Position numbers and translations under genes: made by a program
Shown: one piece after another, positions 2,681 through 10,513 of the stretch
Layout: each line of letters begins with the position of its first letter
How positions within the stretch are numbered: position 1 is the stretch's first letter
Notes under the pieces: model-generated
What the model saw: the letters and a program-made list of their open reading frames with translations, nothing else
What the model was told of the DNA's origin: nothing
Database searches by the model: none
Assembly (NCBI RefSeq): GCF_009865215.1
Contig: NZ_WWJX01000910.1
Span: forward strand, 1 to 32,298
Origin: Streptomyces sp. SID3343
GTDB taxonomy: Bacteria > Actinomycetota > Actinomycetes > Streptomycetales > Streptomycetaceae
Direction: 5' to 3'
DNA: 32,298 nt

Positions 2681-4597
2681 GTGTCCGAGGGGGAGATCGG
2701 CCGAATACTGAACAATCGCTACCGCTTGAGCCGCAGCCTCGGCCGAGGCGGCATGGGCGAGGTGTGGCTGGCCGTCGACACCGCCCTGGGTCGCGAAGTC
2801 GCGGTCAAGGAGCTGCTGCTGCCGACGTCCCTGGACGCGAGTTCGCAACGCTCCTGGCTGGAGCGCAGCAAGCGCGAGGCGAGCGCCGCGGCGCGCATTC
2901 GCCACGAGAACGTGGTGACGGTTCACGACGTCTTCGAAGAGGACGGTCTGCCCTGGATCGTCATGGAATTGGTGATTTCGCGCTCGCTGGCCGACGTGAT
3001 CCGCGCGGAGGGTCGGCTCGACCACGCCGAGGCGGCGCGCATCGGCCTGGACGTGCTGCGCGCGCTGCGTGCCGCGCACGCCAAGGGCGTGCTGCACCGT
3101 GACGTCAAGCCCGCCAACGTGCTGCTCGGCACCGACGGTCGAGTCGTGCTCACCGACTTCGGGATCGCGACGTTCGTCGACGCGCCGCAGGTCACCCAGT
3201 TCGGCGAGTTGCTCGGGACCCCCGGCTACCTCGCGCCCGAACGCGCCGAACAGTTCGCCCGCGCTCGGCCGAGCGTGCTCACCGACGACACGTCGGGCGA
3301 ATGCCCGACCGCCGAGCAGTCGGACGCGCTCGACCCGGCCTCCGACCTGTGGTCGCTCGGCGCGACCTTGTACGAGATGGTCGAGGGCGTCGCGCCGTTT
3401 CGTCGGGCCTCCCCCGTGGAGGTCGTCGACGCGGTGGTCAACGCGCCGCCCGCGCCGCCGCGCCACGCGGGCCCGCTGGAGCCGGTCATCATGGGGTTGC
3501 TGCGCAAGGACCCGATCCGGCGGCTCGACGCCAAGGAGACCGACGCGCTGCTCGCCGGCGTCGTGCAGGACTCGGTACCGGTCACGTGGGGCGGCGATCC
3601 GTTGCCGCGGCGCGAGCGTGACGAGGCGGCCGAGGCGACCTTCGCGGGTGAGCCGCCCGGCGAGGACGCCCCGAGCAAGGCGCCGGGCACCGGCAAGGGC
3701 CGCTGGTGGCGGCGGACCCGGGTCGCGCTGCCCGCCACACTGGCGTTCGTCCTGGTCGCCGCTGGCGCGTCGTGGCTGGCCGTGGAGAACAACCGGGCCG
3801 AGGGCGGCACCCACGCGGCGCCCGACCCGCAGGCGAGCCTGCGCAAGAACTCGCCGACGTATCGGGCCATGGAGGCCCGCGGCCGGGTGATCATCGGCGT
3901 CAAGCCGGACCAGCCCGGCTGGAGCGTGCGCACCGACGACCAGGCGTATCAGGGCTTCGACGACGACGTGGCCCGGATGATCGCGGAGGACCTCGGGTTC
4001 AAGGACCGCGTCACGTTCATGGACGTGGAGACCCAGAACCGCGAGTATCGGATCACCAGCGGTCAGGTCGACCTGGTGGTCGCGAGCTACACGATCAACG
4101 AGGCACGCTCGCAGAAGGTCTCGTTCGCGGGCCCGTACTTCATCGCCGGGCAGGACCTGCTCGTGCGCCGGGACGAGGCCGGCGTGGACGGTCCCGAGGA
4201 CCTCGCGGGCAGCGCGGTGTGTGTCGTGCGCGAGTCGACGTCGGCGTCCCGGATCCGGGCCGAGTTCCCGAACATGCACGTCGAGGAGCGTGGCAAGTAT
4301 TCCGAGTGCGTCGACGAACTCCTGGCCGGAAAAGTGCGCGGGGTCAGCACCGACGACGCGATCCTGTCCGGATTCGTGGCGCAACACCCGGGGAAGCTGC
4401 GGATCCTGGGACGGCCGTTCTCCGACGAGCCGTACGGCGTGGGCCTGAGCAAGGGTGACGTCGCCCTCGCGCAGGCCGTCTGTGGCGCCCTGGAGCGACA
4501 CATCGCCAACGGCGACTGGCAACGCGCGTACGACACCCGGCTGCGTCCGCTCGGGCTGCCTCAGCCGCGCGCGCCGCAGTGTCGGGTGAGCGAGTAG
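2681..4597 (+). CDS. Transmembrane Ser/Thr protein kinase fused to an extracellular GluB-like solute-binding domain
   Basis: 638 residues in three parts. (1) Cytosolic Hanks-type kinase, about 12-270: glycine loop GRGGMGEV (21-28), K43 in VAVKEL, catalytic loop HRDVKPAN (D141), DFG D159, and APE E187, so it should be active. (2) A Pro/Gly/charged linker and one membrane helix at about 348-368. (3) An extracellular family-3 periplasmic binding domain, about 380-630. This last part lines up throughout with GluB encoded at 7858-8808: shared SFAGPYFIAGQ versus SFAGPYYIAGQ, STDDAIL, YGVGL, NGDW; the likely carboxylate-binding Arg (R476), Asp pair (D558/D559) and two cysteines (C514, C543) are kept. 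The inference is a receptor kinase reading external glutamate or a similar amino acid. GTG 2681 follows GGGAGGAGGG. It converges on gluK with only 21 bases between stops. Confidence 0.93.
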   Translation: MSEGEIGRILNNRYRLSRSLGRGGMGEVWLAVDTALGREVAVKELLLPTSLDASSQRSWLERSKREASAAARIRHENVVTVHDVFEEDGLPWIVMELVISRSLADVIRAEGRLDHAEAARIGLDVLRALRAAHAKGVLHRDVKPANVLLGTDGRVVLTDFGIATFVDAPQVTQFGELLGTPGYLAPERAEQFARARPSVLTDDTSGECPTAEQSDALDPASDLWSLGATLYEMVEGVAPFRRASPVEVVDAVVNAPPAPPRHAGPLEPVIMGLLRKDPIRRLDAKETDALLAGVVQDSVPVTWGGDPLPRRERDEAAEATFAGEPPGEDAPSKAPGTGKGRWWRRTRVALPATLAFVLVAAGASWLAVENNRAEGGTHAAPDPQASLRKNSPTYRAMEARGRVIIGVKPDQPGWSVRTDDQAYQGFDDDVARMIAEDLGFKDRVTFMDVETQNREYRITSGQVDLVVASYTINEARSQKVSFAGPYFIAGQDLLVRRDEAGVDGPEDLAGSAVCVVRESTSASRIRAEFPNMHVEERGKYSECVDELLAGKVRGVSTDDAILSGFVAQHPGKLRILGRPFSDEPYGVGLSKGDVALAQAVCGALERHIANGDWQRAYDTRLRPLGLPQPRAPQCRVSE

Positions 4598-4618: not shown

Positions 4619-6034
4619 TCAGTCGGCGCGTGGCACGGTCAGGACGACCGTCAGGCCGCCGCCCTCGCGCGCGGTGAAGTCCACGGCGCCGTCGCCGGCT
4701 TCGAGCAGCGTGCGCGCGATCGACAGGCCCAGGCCGGAGCCGTCCACGTTCTGGTGCCGCGGGCTGCGCCAGAACCGGTCGCCCACCCGGCGCATCTCCT
4801 CGAAGGTCAGGCCCGGGCCGCGGTCGCTGACCCGGATCTCGATCCGGTCGCCGAGCGCCGAGCAGCCGACCGTGACCGTGCTGCCGAGCGGCGCGAACTT
4901 CAGGGCGTTGTCCAGGATCGCGTCGAGCGCGCTGCCGAGCGTGACCGGGTCGACGTTGCCGGTCAGCGCCGACGGGCCCTCCTGCTCGAAGCACTGGTCG
5001 CGCGAGCGGGCCAACGCCTGCCACGCGTCGATGCGTTCGTGGACGAGAGCCGCGACGTCGACCGCGCGCGCGGACGGGCGCGCGTTCTCGGCCAACGCCA
5101 ACTCCAGGAGTTCGTCCAGCACATGGGTGAGCCGACGTCCCTCGTCGCGCACGCCGTCGAGCGTGTCGCCGTGCCCCGGCGGCAACGAAAGACCCAGTTC
5201 CTCGATCCGCAACAACAGCGCGGACAGCGGGTTGCGCAGTTGGTGCGAGGCGTCCGCGGCGAACGCGCGCTGCTGCTCGACGACGGTCTCGACGTGGTCG
5301 GCCATCTCGTTGAACGACCCGGCCAGTCGCCGCAGTTCGGGCGGCCCCTGGGCGCCGGCCACTCGCGCGCCGAGCCGTCCGGTGGCTATCTCGTGGGTCA
5401 CCGAGTCGAGCACGCGAACCGGGCGCAGCACCCATCCCGTGAGCCGGTTCGCGAGCAGCAACGCGGCGAGCACCGCGACCACCTCGCCGGCCGCCAGGAT
5501 CAACCAGTCCTGTTGGACGCGCGAACGCATCCGCCCGGTGGGCGAGTCGGTGACCACGACCGCGACCACGTCGCCGCGGTGGATCACCGGCGCGGCGACG
5601 ACGAGCCGCCCGCGCTGCCACGGCCACACCTGCCCGGGGTCGTCGCTGCGCCGCCCGGCGAGCGCGGCCGTGAAGGCCGCCGAACGGGGGTCGACCCGAA
5701 ATCCGATGTGCGAGACGGCGATCGGCTGGCCGAGCCGGTCGAAGGCGCCGACGCGGATGCCGTACACGTCCTCGTAGCGGGAGAGTTCCGAGCTCAGCAT
5801 GTCCAAGTCGGCCGGGTCCGGTCCCGGGGTCAGCCCGGAGTCGTCCTGGGCGCGCACGGTGTCGGAGACCACGGTGAGTTGCGTGTCGGACACGAAGCGG
5901 GTGATGTCGTCGACCCGGTCGCGGATCACGCCCTGCTGGTGGGCGGACGCGCGCGAGATCGCCAACGGGATGCCCAGTGCGATGAGCACCGCGGTCATCA
6001 GGGTCAGGAGCAACGCGAGCAGGCGGGTACGCAC
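4619..6034 (-). CDS. gluK: Sensor histidine kinase GluK
   Basis: 471-residue membrane histidine kinase. An N-terminal membrane helix (about 5-27) and a second near 175-195 bracket an extracytoplasmic sensor region. A HAMP-like linker follows, then a HisKA H-box ASHQLRNPL with H264 as phospho-acceptor, an N-box LDAILDNALKFAP, and ATP-lid motifs SDRGPGL and GSGLGLSIA. In Streptomyces coelicolor the GluR-GluK pair beside gluABCD senses extracellular glutamate and activates the uptake operon; gene order and family here are the same, so the name is by synteny and domain match. GTG 6034 is 36 bases after the gluR stop, so gluR-gluK is one transcript. No clear ribosome site precedes the GTG, and the frame is open back to the gluR stop, leaving the exact start slightly uncertain. 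Confidence 0.9.
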   Translation of the reverse strand: MRTRLLALLLTLMTAVLIALGIPLAISRASAHQQGVIRDRVDDITRFVSDTQLTVVSDTVRAQDDSGLTPGPDPADLDMLSSELSRYEDVYGIRVGAFDRLGQPIAVSHIGFRVDPRSAAFTAALAGRRSDDPGQVWPWQRGRLVVAAPVIHRGDVVAVVVTDSPTGRMRSRVQQDWLILAAGEVVAVLAALLLANRLTGWVLRPVRVLDSVTHEIATGRLGARVAGAQGPPELRRLAGSFNEMADHVETVVEQQRAFAADASHQLRNPLSALLLRIEELGLSLPPGHGDTLDGVRDEGRRLTHVLDELLELALAENARPSARAVDVAALVHERIDAWQALARSRDQCFEQEGPSALTGNVDPVTLGSALDAILDNALKFAPLGSTVTVGCSALGDRIEIRVSDRGPGLTFEEMRRVGDRFWRSPRHQNVDGSGLGLSIARTLLEAGDGAVDFTAREGGGLTVVLTVPRAD

Positions 6035-6070: not shown

Positions 6071-6748
6071 TCAGGCTTCGGGAACGACACGGTAGCCGAC
6101 GCCGCGCACCGTCTCGACGATCGCGGGGTTGCCGAGCTTGGAACGCAGCGACGCGACGTGCACCTCGAGCGTGCGGTTGTTGCCGGCCCAGCTGGTGTGC
6201 CACACCTCGCTGATGATCTGTTCGCGCCGAAAGACCACGCCCGGACGCTGCGCGAGGAGCGCGAGCAGGTCGAACTCCTTGCGGGTGAGCACGACGTCGG
6301 TGCCGCCGACGGTGACTCGTCTGGTGGCGGGGTCGAGCACGATGCCGTCGGGTCCCTTGGCCGATGCGGTCGACTCGGGGGCGGGGCCGTCGCTGCGGGT
6401 GCGCCGGCCCACGGCGTGTATTCGGGCCAGGAGTTCGCCGATGTCGTAGGGCTTGGTGACGTAGTCGTCGGCGCCCAGGTTGAGCCCGTGTATGCGCGAC
6501 CTGATGTCGGCTCGGGCGGTGACCATGATGACCGGTACGTCGCACAGACGCCGGATGCGGCTGCACACCTCGAAGCCGTCGTGGTCGGGCAGCGACAGGT
6601 CCAACAGCACGACGTCGGGCAGGTCGTCGATGGCGGCGAGCGCCTCCTCCCCCGTGGTGGCATGCCGCACGGTGAACCCGTGCCGGCCCAGCACGGCGCG
6701 CAGTGGCGCGGCGACGCGCAGATCATCCTCGACGAGCAGGAGGCGCAC
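6071..6748 (-). CDS. gluR: OmpR-family response regulator GluR
   Basis: 225 residues. The receiver domain (about 1-115) has the acidic pocket E7-D8-D9, phospho-acceptor D50 in LLDLSLPDHDG, the conserved Thr/Ala in VIMVTARAD, and Lys in YVTKPYD. The C-terminal winged helix (about 130-222) ends in the typical GNNRTLEVHVASLRSKL and VRGVGYRVV motifs of OmpR/PhoB regulators. GTG 6748 is chosen because GAGGA lies 5-6 bases upstream; GTG 6760 is an in-frame alternative. The gene is divergent from gluA and directly upstream of its partner kinase gluK. It is likely to control gluABCD and itself through the intergenic region, where two 11-bp-spaced direct repeats are visible. Confidence 0.92.
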   Translation of the reverse strand: MRLLLVEDDLRVAAPLRAVLGRHGFTVRHATTGEEALAAIDDLPDVVLLDLSLPDHDGFEVCSRIRRLCDVPVIMVTARADIRSRIHGLNLGADDYVTKPYDIGELLARIHAVGRRTRSDGPAPESTASAKGPDGIVLDPATRRVTVGGTDVVLTRKEFDLLALLAQRPGVVFRREQIISEVWHTSWAGNNRTLEVHVASLRSKLGNPAIVETVRGVGYRVVPEA

Positions 6749-6840: not shown

Positions 6841-6934
6841 CACGCACCACCCGGCACCGCCGGGAGACCTCGAACCCACCTGCCACCCGGTCGTGCAAGA
6901 AGATACGGGACGACTCTGGACGGAGCCCGCCATC

Positions 6935-7750
6935 GTGACGACGGATGCCTCTGAGACCACACCGAAGCCGCCGGTGTTCGCGAAGAGCGACAGCACCGCA
7001 AACGCGCCGCAGGGTGAGCCTCTCGTCGTGCTGACGAGTGTCAACAAGCACTTCGGTGCGTTGCACGTACTGCAGGACATCGACCTGACCATCCACCAGG
7101 GTGAGGTCGTCGTCGTGATCGGTCCGTCCGGATCGGGCAAGTCGACGCTGTGCCGCACGATCAACCGCCTGGAGGCGATCGACGCGGGAACCATCACCAT
7201 CGACGGCAAGCAGTTGCCGCAGGAGGGCCGCGAACTGGCCCGGCTGCGCTCGGACGTGGGCATGGTCTTCCAGTCGTTCAACCTGTTCGCGCACAAGACG
7301 GTGCTGCAGAACGTGACCCTGGGCCCGCTCAAGGTCCGTCGCGAGAAGGCGGACGTCGTCAACCGGCGCGCGCAGGAGCTGCTCGACCGGGTCGGCGTGG
7401 GCAGTCAGGCGGACAAGTACCCCGCCCAGCTCTCCGGCGGTCAGCAACAGCGAGTGGCCATCGCCCGCGCGCTGGCCATGGAGCCCAAGGTGATGCTCTT
7501 CGACGAGCCGACCTCGGCGCTGGACCCGGAGATGATCAACGAGGTTCTCGAGGTCATGCGCGACCTTGCCCGCGAGGGCATGACGATGGTCGTGGTGACG
7601 CACGAGATGGGCTTCGCGCGCTCCGCCGCGAACCGCGTGATCTTCATGGCCGACGGCCGCATCGTCGAGGAGAACACTCCCGAGGAGTTCTTCAGCAACC
7701 CGCGCAGCGACCGGGCCAGGGACTTCCTGTCCAAGATCCTGCACCACTGA
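6935..7750 (+). CDS. gluA: Glutamate ABC transporter ATP-binding protein GluA
   Basis: 271 residues; the ATPase of the glutamate importer. Walker [10 protein letters not shown] begins near residue 63, the Q-loop is in [11 protein letters not shown], the ABC signature is [15 protein letters not shown], Walker B is [12 protein letters not shown], and the H-loop is [11 protein letters not shown], so every catalytic element is present. It is closest to the polar amino acid (GlnQ/ArtP) ATPase class. GTG 6935 is preferred because CGGAG lies 9 bases upstream; a longer in-frame GTG at 6893 would add 14 residues. The first 25 or so residues are a poorly conserved Ser/Thr/Pro-rich leader. It is the first gene of gluABCD. 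Confidence 0.94.
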
Positions 7751-7857: not shown

Positions 7858-8808
7858 ATGAAGATGCGCAAGACTGTCGCCGCCGCCGGTATCACCGTGC
7901 TCGCCCTGTTCGGCACCGCGTGCGGCAAGGACGGTTCGCCGGAGGCGAAGAACCCGGGCGGCACCACCGGCGGCGCTCCGGGCGCCCCGGGCGGGACCGG
8001 TGCCGCCAAGCCCGAACTGCCCACGTACACCCCCAAGCAGGGCGTCGCGCTGGCCGGCTCGAAGACGTTCGAGAACGCGACCAAGCGCGGCAAGCTCGTC
8101 GTCGGCGCGAAGGAGGATCAGCCCTTCCTCGGGTCGAAGGATCCGGCCACCGGCAAGTACTCCGGCTTCGACATCGAGATAGCCAAGATGATCGCCGCGG
8201 AACTGGGCTTCGGCCCCGACAAGATCGAGTTCAAGGCGATCGCGTCGACCAACCGTGAAAACGCGCTCGTCAACGGCGACATCGACTACTACGTCGGCAC
8301 CTACAGCATCACCGACAAGCGCAAGGAGCAGGTCTCCTTCGCGGGTCCGTACTACATCGCCGGCCAGTCGCTGCTCGTGCGCAAGAACGAGAGCGCGATC
8401 ACCGGCAAGGACACCATCAAGGGCAAGACGGTCTGTTCCGCGAAGGGTTCGACCCCGCTGCAGAACCTCCAGACCAACTTCCCCGACACCACCACGCGCG
8501 TCTTCGACACGTACTCGCTGTGCGTCGAGGCGCTGCTGTCCAACCAGGTCGACGCGGTCTCCACCGACGACGCGATCCTCAAGGGCTACGCGGCCAAGGA
8601 CCCGGCCGCGCTCAAGATCGCCGGCGAGCCGTTCACCACCGAGAACTACGGCGTGGGCCTGAACAAGGACGACGCGGTCTTTCGCGGCGCGGTGAGCGAC
8701 GCACTGGACGCGCACGAGAAGAACGGCGACTGGAAGAAGGCGTACGACGCGACGCTGGGCCTGTCCGGCAGCGCCGCCCCGGCTGTCCCGGCGCTCGTCC
8801 GCTACTGA
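7858..8808 (+). CDS. gluB: Glutamate-binding lipoprotein GluB
   Basis: 316 residues; the extracytoplasmic receptor of the GluABCD importer. A basic start and hydrophobic stretch lead to a lipobox-like FGTAC (C22), where the -3 residue is Gly rather than the usual Leu. A Gly/Pro-rich tether (about 25-65) precedes the family-3 binding domain. The domain shows GFDIEIAKMIAAELGF, YSITDKRKEQVSFAGPYY with the carboxylate-binding Arg, a two-cysteine pair (KTVCSAKG and YSLCVEALL) and VSTDDAILKGY. AAGGA at 7844-7848 supports ATG 7858. The binding domain is paralogous to the extracellular half of the receptor kinase encoded at 2681-4597. Confidence 0.95.
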   Translation: MKMRKTVAAAGITVLALFGTACGKDGSPEAKNPGGTTGGAPGAPGGTGAAKPELPTYTPKQGVALAGSKTFENATKRGKLVVGAKEDQPFLGSKDPATGKYSGFDIEIAKMIAAELGFGPDKIEFKAIASTNRENALVNGDIDYYVGTYSITDKRKEQVSFAGPYYIAGQSLLVRKNESAITGKDTIKGKTVCSAKGSTPLQNLQTNFPDTTTRVFDTYSLCVEALLSNQVDAVSTDDAILKGYAAKDPAALKIAGEPFTTENYGVGLNKDDAVFRGAVSDALDAHEKNGDWKKAYDATLGLSGSAAPAVPALVRY

Positions 8809-8954: not shown

Positions 8955-9602
8955 ATGTTCGAAGTTGTCCAGGACAACTGGGATCTCTTGCAGGACGGAT
9001 TCGTCGGCACGCTGAAGCTGACGCTCGTCTGTGGAATCGTGTCGCTTCTGCTCGGCACGTTGATAGCCGCGTGTCGCGTCTCGCCGGTGCCCCCACTGCG
9101 CTGGTTCGGCACCGCCTACGTCATGATTTTCCGCAACACCCCGCTGACGCTGATCTTCTTCTTCGTCGCCCTCGGTTTCCCGAAGCTGCGGTTCAACCTG
9201 TCGTACTTCGAGTTCGCGATCATCGCACTCAGCACGTACACCGCCGCCTTCATCTGCGAGGCGATCCGCTCGGGTATCAACACCGTGCCGATCGGCCAGG
9301 CCGAGGCCGCTCGCAGCCTGGGTATGTCCTTCACCCAGACCCTCGGCCAGATCGTGCTGCCGCAGGCCGGCCGCGCCGCGGTCCCGCCGATCGGCAGTCT
9401 GTTGATCGCCATGGTCCGCAACTCGGCGATCGCGAGCGCGTTCAACGTCACCGAACTCATGGGCACGAGCGCGCAGATGGTCGAGAACGGCTACAAGTCG
9501 CTGTGGGTGCTGACCTGGATCGCCATCGGCTACCTCGTCATCACGTTGTCGATGAGCGCGGCACTGGCCGCCCTCGAAAAGAAGCTGGCGGTGGTCCGAT
9601 GA
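8955..9602 (+). CDS. gluC: Glutamate ABC transporter permease GluC
   Basis: 215-residue integral membrane protein of the His/Glu/Gln/Arg permease family (HisM/GlnP class). It has about five hydrophobic segments, and the cytoplasmic EAA loop reads EAARSLGMSFTQTLGQIVLP, which docks onto the ATPase GluA. GAGAGGAGGA ends about 12 bases before the ATG. It lies 146 bases after gluB and its stop overlaps the start of gluD (ATGA), so the two permease subunits are translationally coupled and should assemble as a heterodimer. Confidence 0.95.
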   Translation: MFEVVQDNWDLLQDGFVGTLKLTLVCGIVSLLLGTLIAACRVSPVPPLRWFGTAYVMIFRNTPLTLIFFFVALGFPKLRFNLSYFEFAIIALSTYTAAFICEAIRSGINTVPIGQAEAARSLGMSFTQTLGQIVLPQAGRAAVPPIGSLLIAMVRNSAIASAFNVTELMGTSAQMVENGYKSLWVLTWIAIGYLVITLSMSAALAALEKKLAVVR

Positions 9603-10513
9603 GCCGCGAAGCGAGCGTCCTGTTCGACGTTCCCGGTCCCAAGGCGCGCATGCGCAACCTGATCGTCGGGATCGTCGGCACCCTGGCCCTGGCCGGGTTC
9701 GTGATCTTCGTGATCGTGCGTTTCAACGAGACCGGTCAGTTCGAGTCGGCGAAGTGGGACCCGTTCCAGTACTCCGGGGTCCAGCAGTTCATCCTCGACG
9801 GCCTCAAGGCCACCCTGAAGGCGTTCGCCTACGCGGCGGTGCTGTCCATCCTGCTCGGCGCCCTGCTCGCCGCCGGTCGGCTCTCCGATCACGCGCCGGT
9901 GCGTTGGGCCGCCACCGCGTTCGTGACGTTCTTTCGCGCGATGCCGCTGCTCGTCCTGATCTTCATGCTCTACCTGATCCCCGGCAGCATGGGCTGGTGG
10001 AAGTGGGACCCGCTGTGGCCGCTGGTCGTGGGTCTGACCGTCTACAACGGCACGGTGCAGGCGGAGAACATCCGCGCCGGCATCCTGGCCGTGCCCAAGG
10101 GCCAGAGCGAGGCCGCGTACGCCCTGGGTATGCGCAAGACCCAGGTGATGACGATGATCCTGGTGCCACAGGGCATCCGGACCATGCTGCCGACGATCAT
10201 CAGCCAGGTCGTGGTGACCCTCAAGGACACCTCGCTCGGCTTCCTGATCACCTACCCGGAGTTGCTCGCGGCGGCCAAGCTGATCGGCGGCTACCAGGAC
10301 TACAACATGCCGTTCATCCCGGTCACCCTGATCATCGGTGCCATCTACATCTCGATGTGCATGATCCTGTCGGCGTTCGCGACCTGGCTGGAGCGTCGCC
10401 TGCGCACGTCCCGCAAGGGCAAGCCGCCGGCCGCGCCCGCGCAGGCCGACATGGGCGGCGGATACGGCCGTAGTACCGCCACCCTGCCCGCGGCGGTGGG
10501 ACCGAGCGCCTGA
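9599..10513 (+). CDS. gluD: Glutamate ABC transporter permease GluD
   Basis: 304 residues; second permease subunit. An N-terminal helix (about 20-42) precedes the conserved permease core, with EAA loop EAAYALGMRKTQVMTMILVP. The C-terminal 35 residues are a Lys/Pro/Ala/Gly-rich cytoplasmic tail absent from GluC. ATG 9599 overlaps the gluC stop by four bases. It is the last gene of the operon and is followed 30 bases later by a strong hairpin. Confidence 0.95.
   Translation: MSREASVLFDVPGPKARMRNLIVGIVGTLALAGFVIFVIVRFNETGQFESAKWDPFQYSGVQQFILDGLKATLKAFAYAAVLSILLGALLAAGRLSDHAPVRWAATAFVTFFRAMPLLVLIFMLYLIPGSMGWWKWDPLWPLVVGLTVYNGTVQAENIRAGILAVPKGQSEAAYALGMRKTQVMTMILVPQGIRTMLPTIISQVVVTLKDTSLGFLITYPELLAAAKLIGGYQDYNMPFIPVTLIIGAIYISMCMILSAFATWLERRLRTSRKGKPPAAPAQADMGGGYGRSTATLPAAVGPSA

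Follow-up and report, generated by a model that had tools for sequence, protein, structure and literature searches.

The 32,298-nucleotide stretch of DNA from Streptomyces sp. SID3343 analysed here (contig NZ_WWJX01000910.1, positions 1 to 32,298; "the window" in what follows) carries at positions 2681 to 4597 a gene that joins, in a single polypeptide, a Hanks-type Ser/Thr kinase, a membrane helix and an outer solute-binding protein (SBP) domain of the GluB family. As judged from sequence comparisons and structure models, the product is probably a receptor Ser/Thr kinase that spans the membrane once and senses glutamate and/or aspartate outside the cell. Kinase-SBP fusions as a kind are already known; what is added here is a family associated with the glu locus, evidence on its ligand pocket, its conserved genomic place, and an origin probably separate from that of the mycobacterial fusion StpK7. 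The combination of a well-understood flytrap fold with a simple predicted ligand makes the receptor open to direct testing, the fusion offers a natural one-chain comparison with the GlnH-GlnX-PknG pathway, and its locus is a case of Ser/Thr and His/Asp signalling side by side.

Receptor architecture and the kinase domain

The gene and the parts of its product are as follows.

2681-4597, + strand: kinase-SBP fusion gene, 638 amino acids, GTG start; uninterrupted single frame with known orthologues
2720-3538, + strand: Hanks-type Ser/Thr kinase domain, residues 14-286 (PF00069, Pkinase, E 8.6e-44)
3194-3196, + strand: T172, activation-loop Thr aligned with PknB T171, invariant in 20 fusions
3251-3328, + strand: insert after the APE motif, about residues 191-216, mostly of low confidence in the model
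3569-3721, + strand: disordered cytoplasmic juxtamembrane linker, residues 297-347 (predicted local distance difference test, pLDDT, below 50 at 299-347)
3722-3790, + strand: single transmembrane helix, about residues 348-370 by hydropathy (helix 349-373 in the model)
3863-4552, + strand: extracytoplasmic GluB-family solute-binding domain, residues 395-624 (PF00497 and structure model)
4040-4042, + strand: R454, aligned with GlnH R147, a contact of the ligand side-chain carboxylate
4106-4108, + strand: R476, aligned with GlnH R169, a contact of the ligand amino-acid backbone
4352-4354, + strand: D558, aligned with GlnH D250, a contact of the ligand amino-acid backbone
4481-4483, + strand: C601, a Cys of the fusions only (31/31 fusions against 0/22 GluBs), with C634 at 4580-4582 as its likely partner

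Both domains and the helix between them lie in one open frame, and the receptor-kinase architecture proposed in a sequence-only reading of this DNA was confirmed by Pfam, motif and hydropathy analyses (Pkinase, one helix, SBP_bac_3). The lone hydrophobic peak, at residues 350-368, is preceded by the basic flank RWWRRTR on its N-terminal side; the predicted topology thus places the kinase inside and the sensor outside, with one membrane helix between them. The catalytic motifs GRGGMG, VAVKEL, HRDVKPANV, DFG and APE are all intact, and together with the single helix they mark the protein as a PknB-like receptor Ser/Thr kinase of the Hanks type. By sequence, the nearest solved structures are PknA and PknB, and the AlphaFold2 model of the kinase superposes on PknB with a Z-score of 31 over 252 residues. 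Membership among the PASTA kinases was rejected, as the NF033483 model matched the kinase part only, at 240.9 bits against a cut-off of 450, and the Pfam scan detected no PASTA domain. The insert that follows the APE motif, ahead of helix F, varies from roughly 15 to 60 amino acids and is confined in the fusion alignment to Embleya and Yinghuangia.

Residues R13, L36 and D83 of the fusion kinase, invariant in 20 fusions, align with R10, L33 and D76 of PknB, which belong to its activating back-to-back dimer face, in agreement with L33D and D76A in PDB titles.

Conservation was assessed in 298 Streptomycetaceae genomes from 17 genera, among which 31 genomes in seven genera encode a protein with both domains. 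Among Embleya orthologues the ratio of nonsynonymous to synonymous substitution rates (dN/dS) is 0.09-0.15 for the kinase, 0.12-0.16 for the SBP domain and about 0.3 for the linker, so that on these ratios the kinase and SBP domains are both under purifying selection. The occurrence in 31 genomes and the dN/dS values together argue that the gene is real and that both halves are maintained, rather than being a product of chance. A class-wide search with a single fusion protein at E 1e-75 returned full-length relatives beyond the source genome only in genus g9 (presumably Streptomyces), a restriction which means that distant fusions may be missed at this threshold.

The outer domain and its predicted ligand

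The assignment of the outer domain to the GluB family, first made from its alignment with the gluB product encoded 3.3 kb away, was upheld. The SBP_bac_3 match spans residues 403-618 (E 6.3e-23; 81.4 bits against a cut-off of 26.4), and the identity to GluB (7858-8808) is 42% over 244 amino acids (E 5e-71). Modelled alone with AlphaFold2, the domain reached a pLDDT of 94.5 and a predicted TM-score (pTM) of 0.89. Its top match in the PDB is 5eyf, a glutamate-bound SBP of E. faecium (Z 31.6, root-mean-square deviation 1.7, 238 aligned residues), followed by GlnH with aspartate (Z 30.6) and with glutamate (Z 30.4), where rows within 1 Z count as ties and a common fold does not fix the ligand.

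More specific are the residues lining the pocket. In the complex of M. tuberculosis GlnH with aspartate, polar contacts to the amino-acid backbone groups are made by S164, R169 and D250, and contacts to the side chain by R147, W232 and T162, as well as by K161 through water (PMC6069109). When these were mapped onto the fusion by phmmer alignment, the backbone contacts corresponded to T471, R476 and D558, respectively, the side-chain contacts to R454, Y540 and S469, and K161 to A468. R454, R476, Y540 and D558 are invariant in all 31 fusions, and positions 469 and 471 are occupied by Ser or Thr only, so that each of the six positions agrees with an Asp/Glu binder throughout; the Tyr that replaces W232 of GlnH is also present in GluB and in glutamate-bound 5eyf. 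Because all six GlnH ligand positions are conserved across the 31 relatives, including the Arg that would contact the side-chain carboxylate (R454), aspartate or glutamate is the likely ligand of the outer domain.

Some of these residues had been singled out from the letters of the sequence. The likely ligand residues R476 and D558 proved to be invariant, with the adjacent D559 kept in 29 of the 31 fusions; R454, S469/T471 and Y540 had been overlooked, as had C601 and C634. The two Cys to which attention had been drawn, C514 and C543, are indeed invariant in the fusions, but they are not special to them, since GluB and GlnH-like proteins have both. C601 is different in this respect, and the invariance of C634 in 20 of 20 fusions suggests that the pair forms a second disulfide that would pin the C-terminal tail.

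The glu locus, a possible mechanism and rival explanations

The fusion gene is flanked by the following genes.

2-1402, - strand: miaB, conserved flank (TIGR01574 above cut-off; 82-97% identity in relatives)
1423-2469, + strand: TAXI-family binding protein with an N-terminal hydrophobic anchor by hydropathy (TIGR02122, E 2.2e-71)
4619-6034, - strand: sensor histidine kinase in the GluK position (domain scan; synteny)
6071-6748, - strand: OmpR-type response regulator in the GluR position (domain scan; synteny)
6893-7750, + strand: gluA, ABC transporter ATPase (domain scan)
7858-8808, + strand: gluB, lipoprotein SBP (domain scan; lipobox-like FGTAC in the translation)
8955-9602, + strand: gluC, permease (domain scan)
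9599-10513, + strand: gluD, permease (domain scan)

The gluABCD genes thus begin 2.3 kb downstream of the fusion gene, and the order miaB, orphan TAXI gene, kinase, GluK/GluR-type genes and gluABCD is conserved in six Streptomycetaceae genera. Outside g9 the TAXI gene immediately precedes the fusion at all 16 loci read, the window included. At 15 of them the genes for the histidine kinase and the response regulator come next, together with gluABCD; in the remaining locus (L054) the two-component genes lie about 7 kb further on. In g9 none of the five glu loci has such a kinase; the TAXI gene abuts the histidine kinase in four of them, and the two are 3.2 kb apart in the fifth. In S. coelicolor, the corresponding two-component pair GluK-GluR (SCO5779/5778) responds to glutamate, not glutamine, and controls gluABCD (PMC9739842). 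This system resembles the fusion kinase in its locus and in the sensing of glutamate by a membrane kinase, as predicted for the fusion, but it consists of a histidine kinase and a response regulator, in which the domain scan found no SBP domain.

On the receptor reading, binding of glutamate or aspartate would close the outer flytrap, and this closure would alter the pairing of receptors through the membrane helix. Paired kinases might then be activated by trans-autophosphorylation at T172, by way of the PknB-type face that includes R13, L36 and D83, and the active kinase would phosphorylate cytoplasmic proteins through which glutamate uptake or nitrogen metabolism is adjusted. Conjectural candidates for these targets are GluR and GluK, by position only, and an OdhI/GarA-like FHA protein, by analogy only; GluR and OdhI-type proteins had been proposed from the sequence alone.

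Several observations weigh against this interpretation. Many PknB-type kinases share the dimer-face residues, which are supportive only and provide no proof of ligand control. Linkage of the fusion to the glu locus is not universal, because the g9 fusions lie elsewhere (7/7), and no common theme was found among the neighbours of these seven loci. Finally, G518 in the ligand loop is replaced by Glu or Asp in most fusions while the GluBs keep Gly, and affinity or specificity could therefore differ from those of GluB. This last, fusion-specific change would also suit an outer domain that binds no free amino acid and instead serves as a docking site for ligand-loaded GluB, for the orphan TAXI protein or for the GluCD permease, the kinase then reading transport; the conserved neighbourhood with the TAXI gene, GluK and gluABCD is in keeping with such a role. 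A degenerate pocket, however, would be expected to lose the six ligand contacts that all 31 fusions keep, the carboxylate Arg among them, and docking is considered unlikely. The unusual residue at 518 might equally reflect another polar amino acid or dicarboxylate as the ligand, such as glutamine, asparagine or a compound of the glutamate or diaminopimelate type derived from the cell wall. Such a ligand appears distinctly improbable given that R454 and Y540 fit pockets of the Asp/Glu type (R147 in GlnH; Arg and Tyr in glutamate-bound 5eyf), and that GluK of the same locus discriminates against glutamine in S. coelicolor (PMC9739842).

A further rival draws on a known protein. Bhattacharyya et al. 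(2018) remarked that Mycobacterium and Streptomyces have genes whose product combines a kinase with an SBP in one chain, naming MSMEG_1200 and counting 260 more such proteins in InterPro (PMC6069109). This remark takes up one sentence, and no glu-locus family, pocket, phylogeny or ligand is described there. MSMEG_1200 is the M. smegmatis kinase StpK7, the subject of work on susceptibility to infection by phage TM4, and were the fusion a member of this family, a role in phage-related or lipid-island regulation could be expected in place of glutamate signalling. The order of kinase, single helix and SBP_bac_3 in one chain is the same, and the StpK7 model NF052427 matches both halves of the fusion; yet the match reaches only 184 of the 900 bits that the cut-off requires, and membership was rejected. 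The StpK7 SBP is of another subfamily, with only 28% identity to GluB, a value read from one locus only (L116) because at E 1e-8 the queries used matched no SBP in most of the StpK7 loci. Moreover, in the kinase tree StpK7 falls among mycobacterial kinases and outside the fusion clade, and its gene lies in a BREX-like island of a kind absent from the fusion locus. StpK7 is thus probably an independent fusion, and it is highly improbable that its role extends to the protein considered here. The suggestion that such fusions might exist as database annotations, with ligand and signalling role little explored, was revised, as the architecture is in print and StpK7 has been studied; what holds is that the conserved glu-locus family appears uncharacterised, no paper on it having been found in the open-access literature, although one elsewhere is not excluded.

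If the fusion is indeed a glutamate receptor, the locus invites a wider, rather speculative proposal, namely a three-sensor glutamate module. In it a fusion kinase gated directly by glutamate, the tethered orphan TAXI protein and GluK-GluR would all respond to one ligand, and the fusion kinase would combine the readings by phosphorylating GluR or GluK. The fusion would then be a bacterial receptor Ser/Thr kinase whose small-molecule ligand is defined; this scheme seems rather unlikely as a whole. TAXI proteins are described as always found with fused permeases (PMC5812351), and the TAXI-type TRAP permease model TIGR02123 had no match in the whole genome. The TAXI protein is perhaps part of a sensor, as it adjoins the GluK-type kinase, conserved with or without the fusion. 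The N-terminal hydrophobic segment of the protein (1423-2469, + strand) looks uncleaved, and its nearest solved relatives include 1us4 and 1us5 of Thermus, named as a GluR0-like ligand-binding core.

Origin of the fusion and the PknG pathway

Each of the 1000 bootstraps of the SBP tree unites the fusion domains in a single clade, which branches within the GluB group and away from the GlnH group; this support holds with three very long rows left out (row L095 had fallen inside the fusion clade). The kinase tree likewise recovers the fusions as one clade (98/95), although rooting and deep order are uncertain in these trees. Since each half gives a single fusion clade, the trees indicate one old fusion event in the sample, as opposed to a copying of the gluB that is now adjacent. 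The fusion SBPs are sister to the Streptomycetaceae GluBs in only 255 of 1000 bootstraps, and with a separate fusion clade this implies that the split from these GluBs is old and that the direct parent cannot be named. By this phylogeny the outer domain is an old GluB-family paralogue, related to GluB by family, pocket positions and the C514-C543 pair, whereas GluB itself is a transport lipoprotein with neither kinase, helix tether nor C601. A recent duplication of the adjacent gluB was rejected on the SBP trees; the sequence-only proposal that the gene arose by gluB duplication beside a kinase therefore fails for the present gluB, while an ancestral duplication within the GluB family is still plausible.

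The same reading held that this one chain does what GlnH, GlnX and PknG do in three. In both cases an external Asp/Glu-binding SBP would be coupled to a Ser/Thr kinase, but the actinobacterial pathway comprises three proteins, with a soluble kinase carrying rubredoxin and TPR domains and an SBP of the GlnH clade, and the Pfam scan found neither rubredoxin nor TPR in the fusion protein. The source genome also encodes a PknG with a rubredoxin domain, a GlnH-like lipoprotein, and an OdhI/GarA-like FHA protein that scores 180.6 bits with the OdhI model, slightly under the cut-off of 200. Replacement of PknG by the fusion kinase is excluded by the presence of PknG, and because these components are retained the fusion kinase is better regarded as an additional input; the comparison survives as an analogy only. 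Inspection of translations placed PP2C-, VWA- and FHA-type genes near pknG, and the OdhI-like gene in a gcvH-FHA-MerR neighbourhood. The OdhI/GarA-like protein (L103, 1447-2259, - strand) is extended at its N-terminus by a long segment with a possible zinc ribbon.

The source genome contains a second complete gluABCD-type operon (L004, contig C510), and in two genomes of the Yinghuangia group a second gluB-like gene lies downstream of gluD (L011, 16376-17284; L045, 17411-18328).
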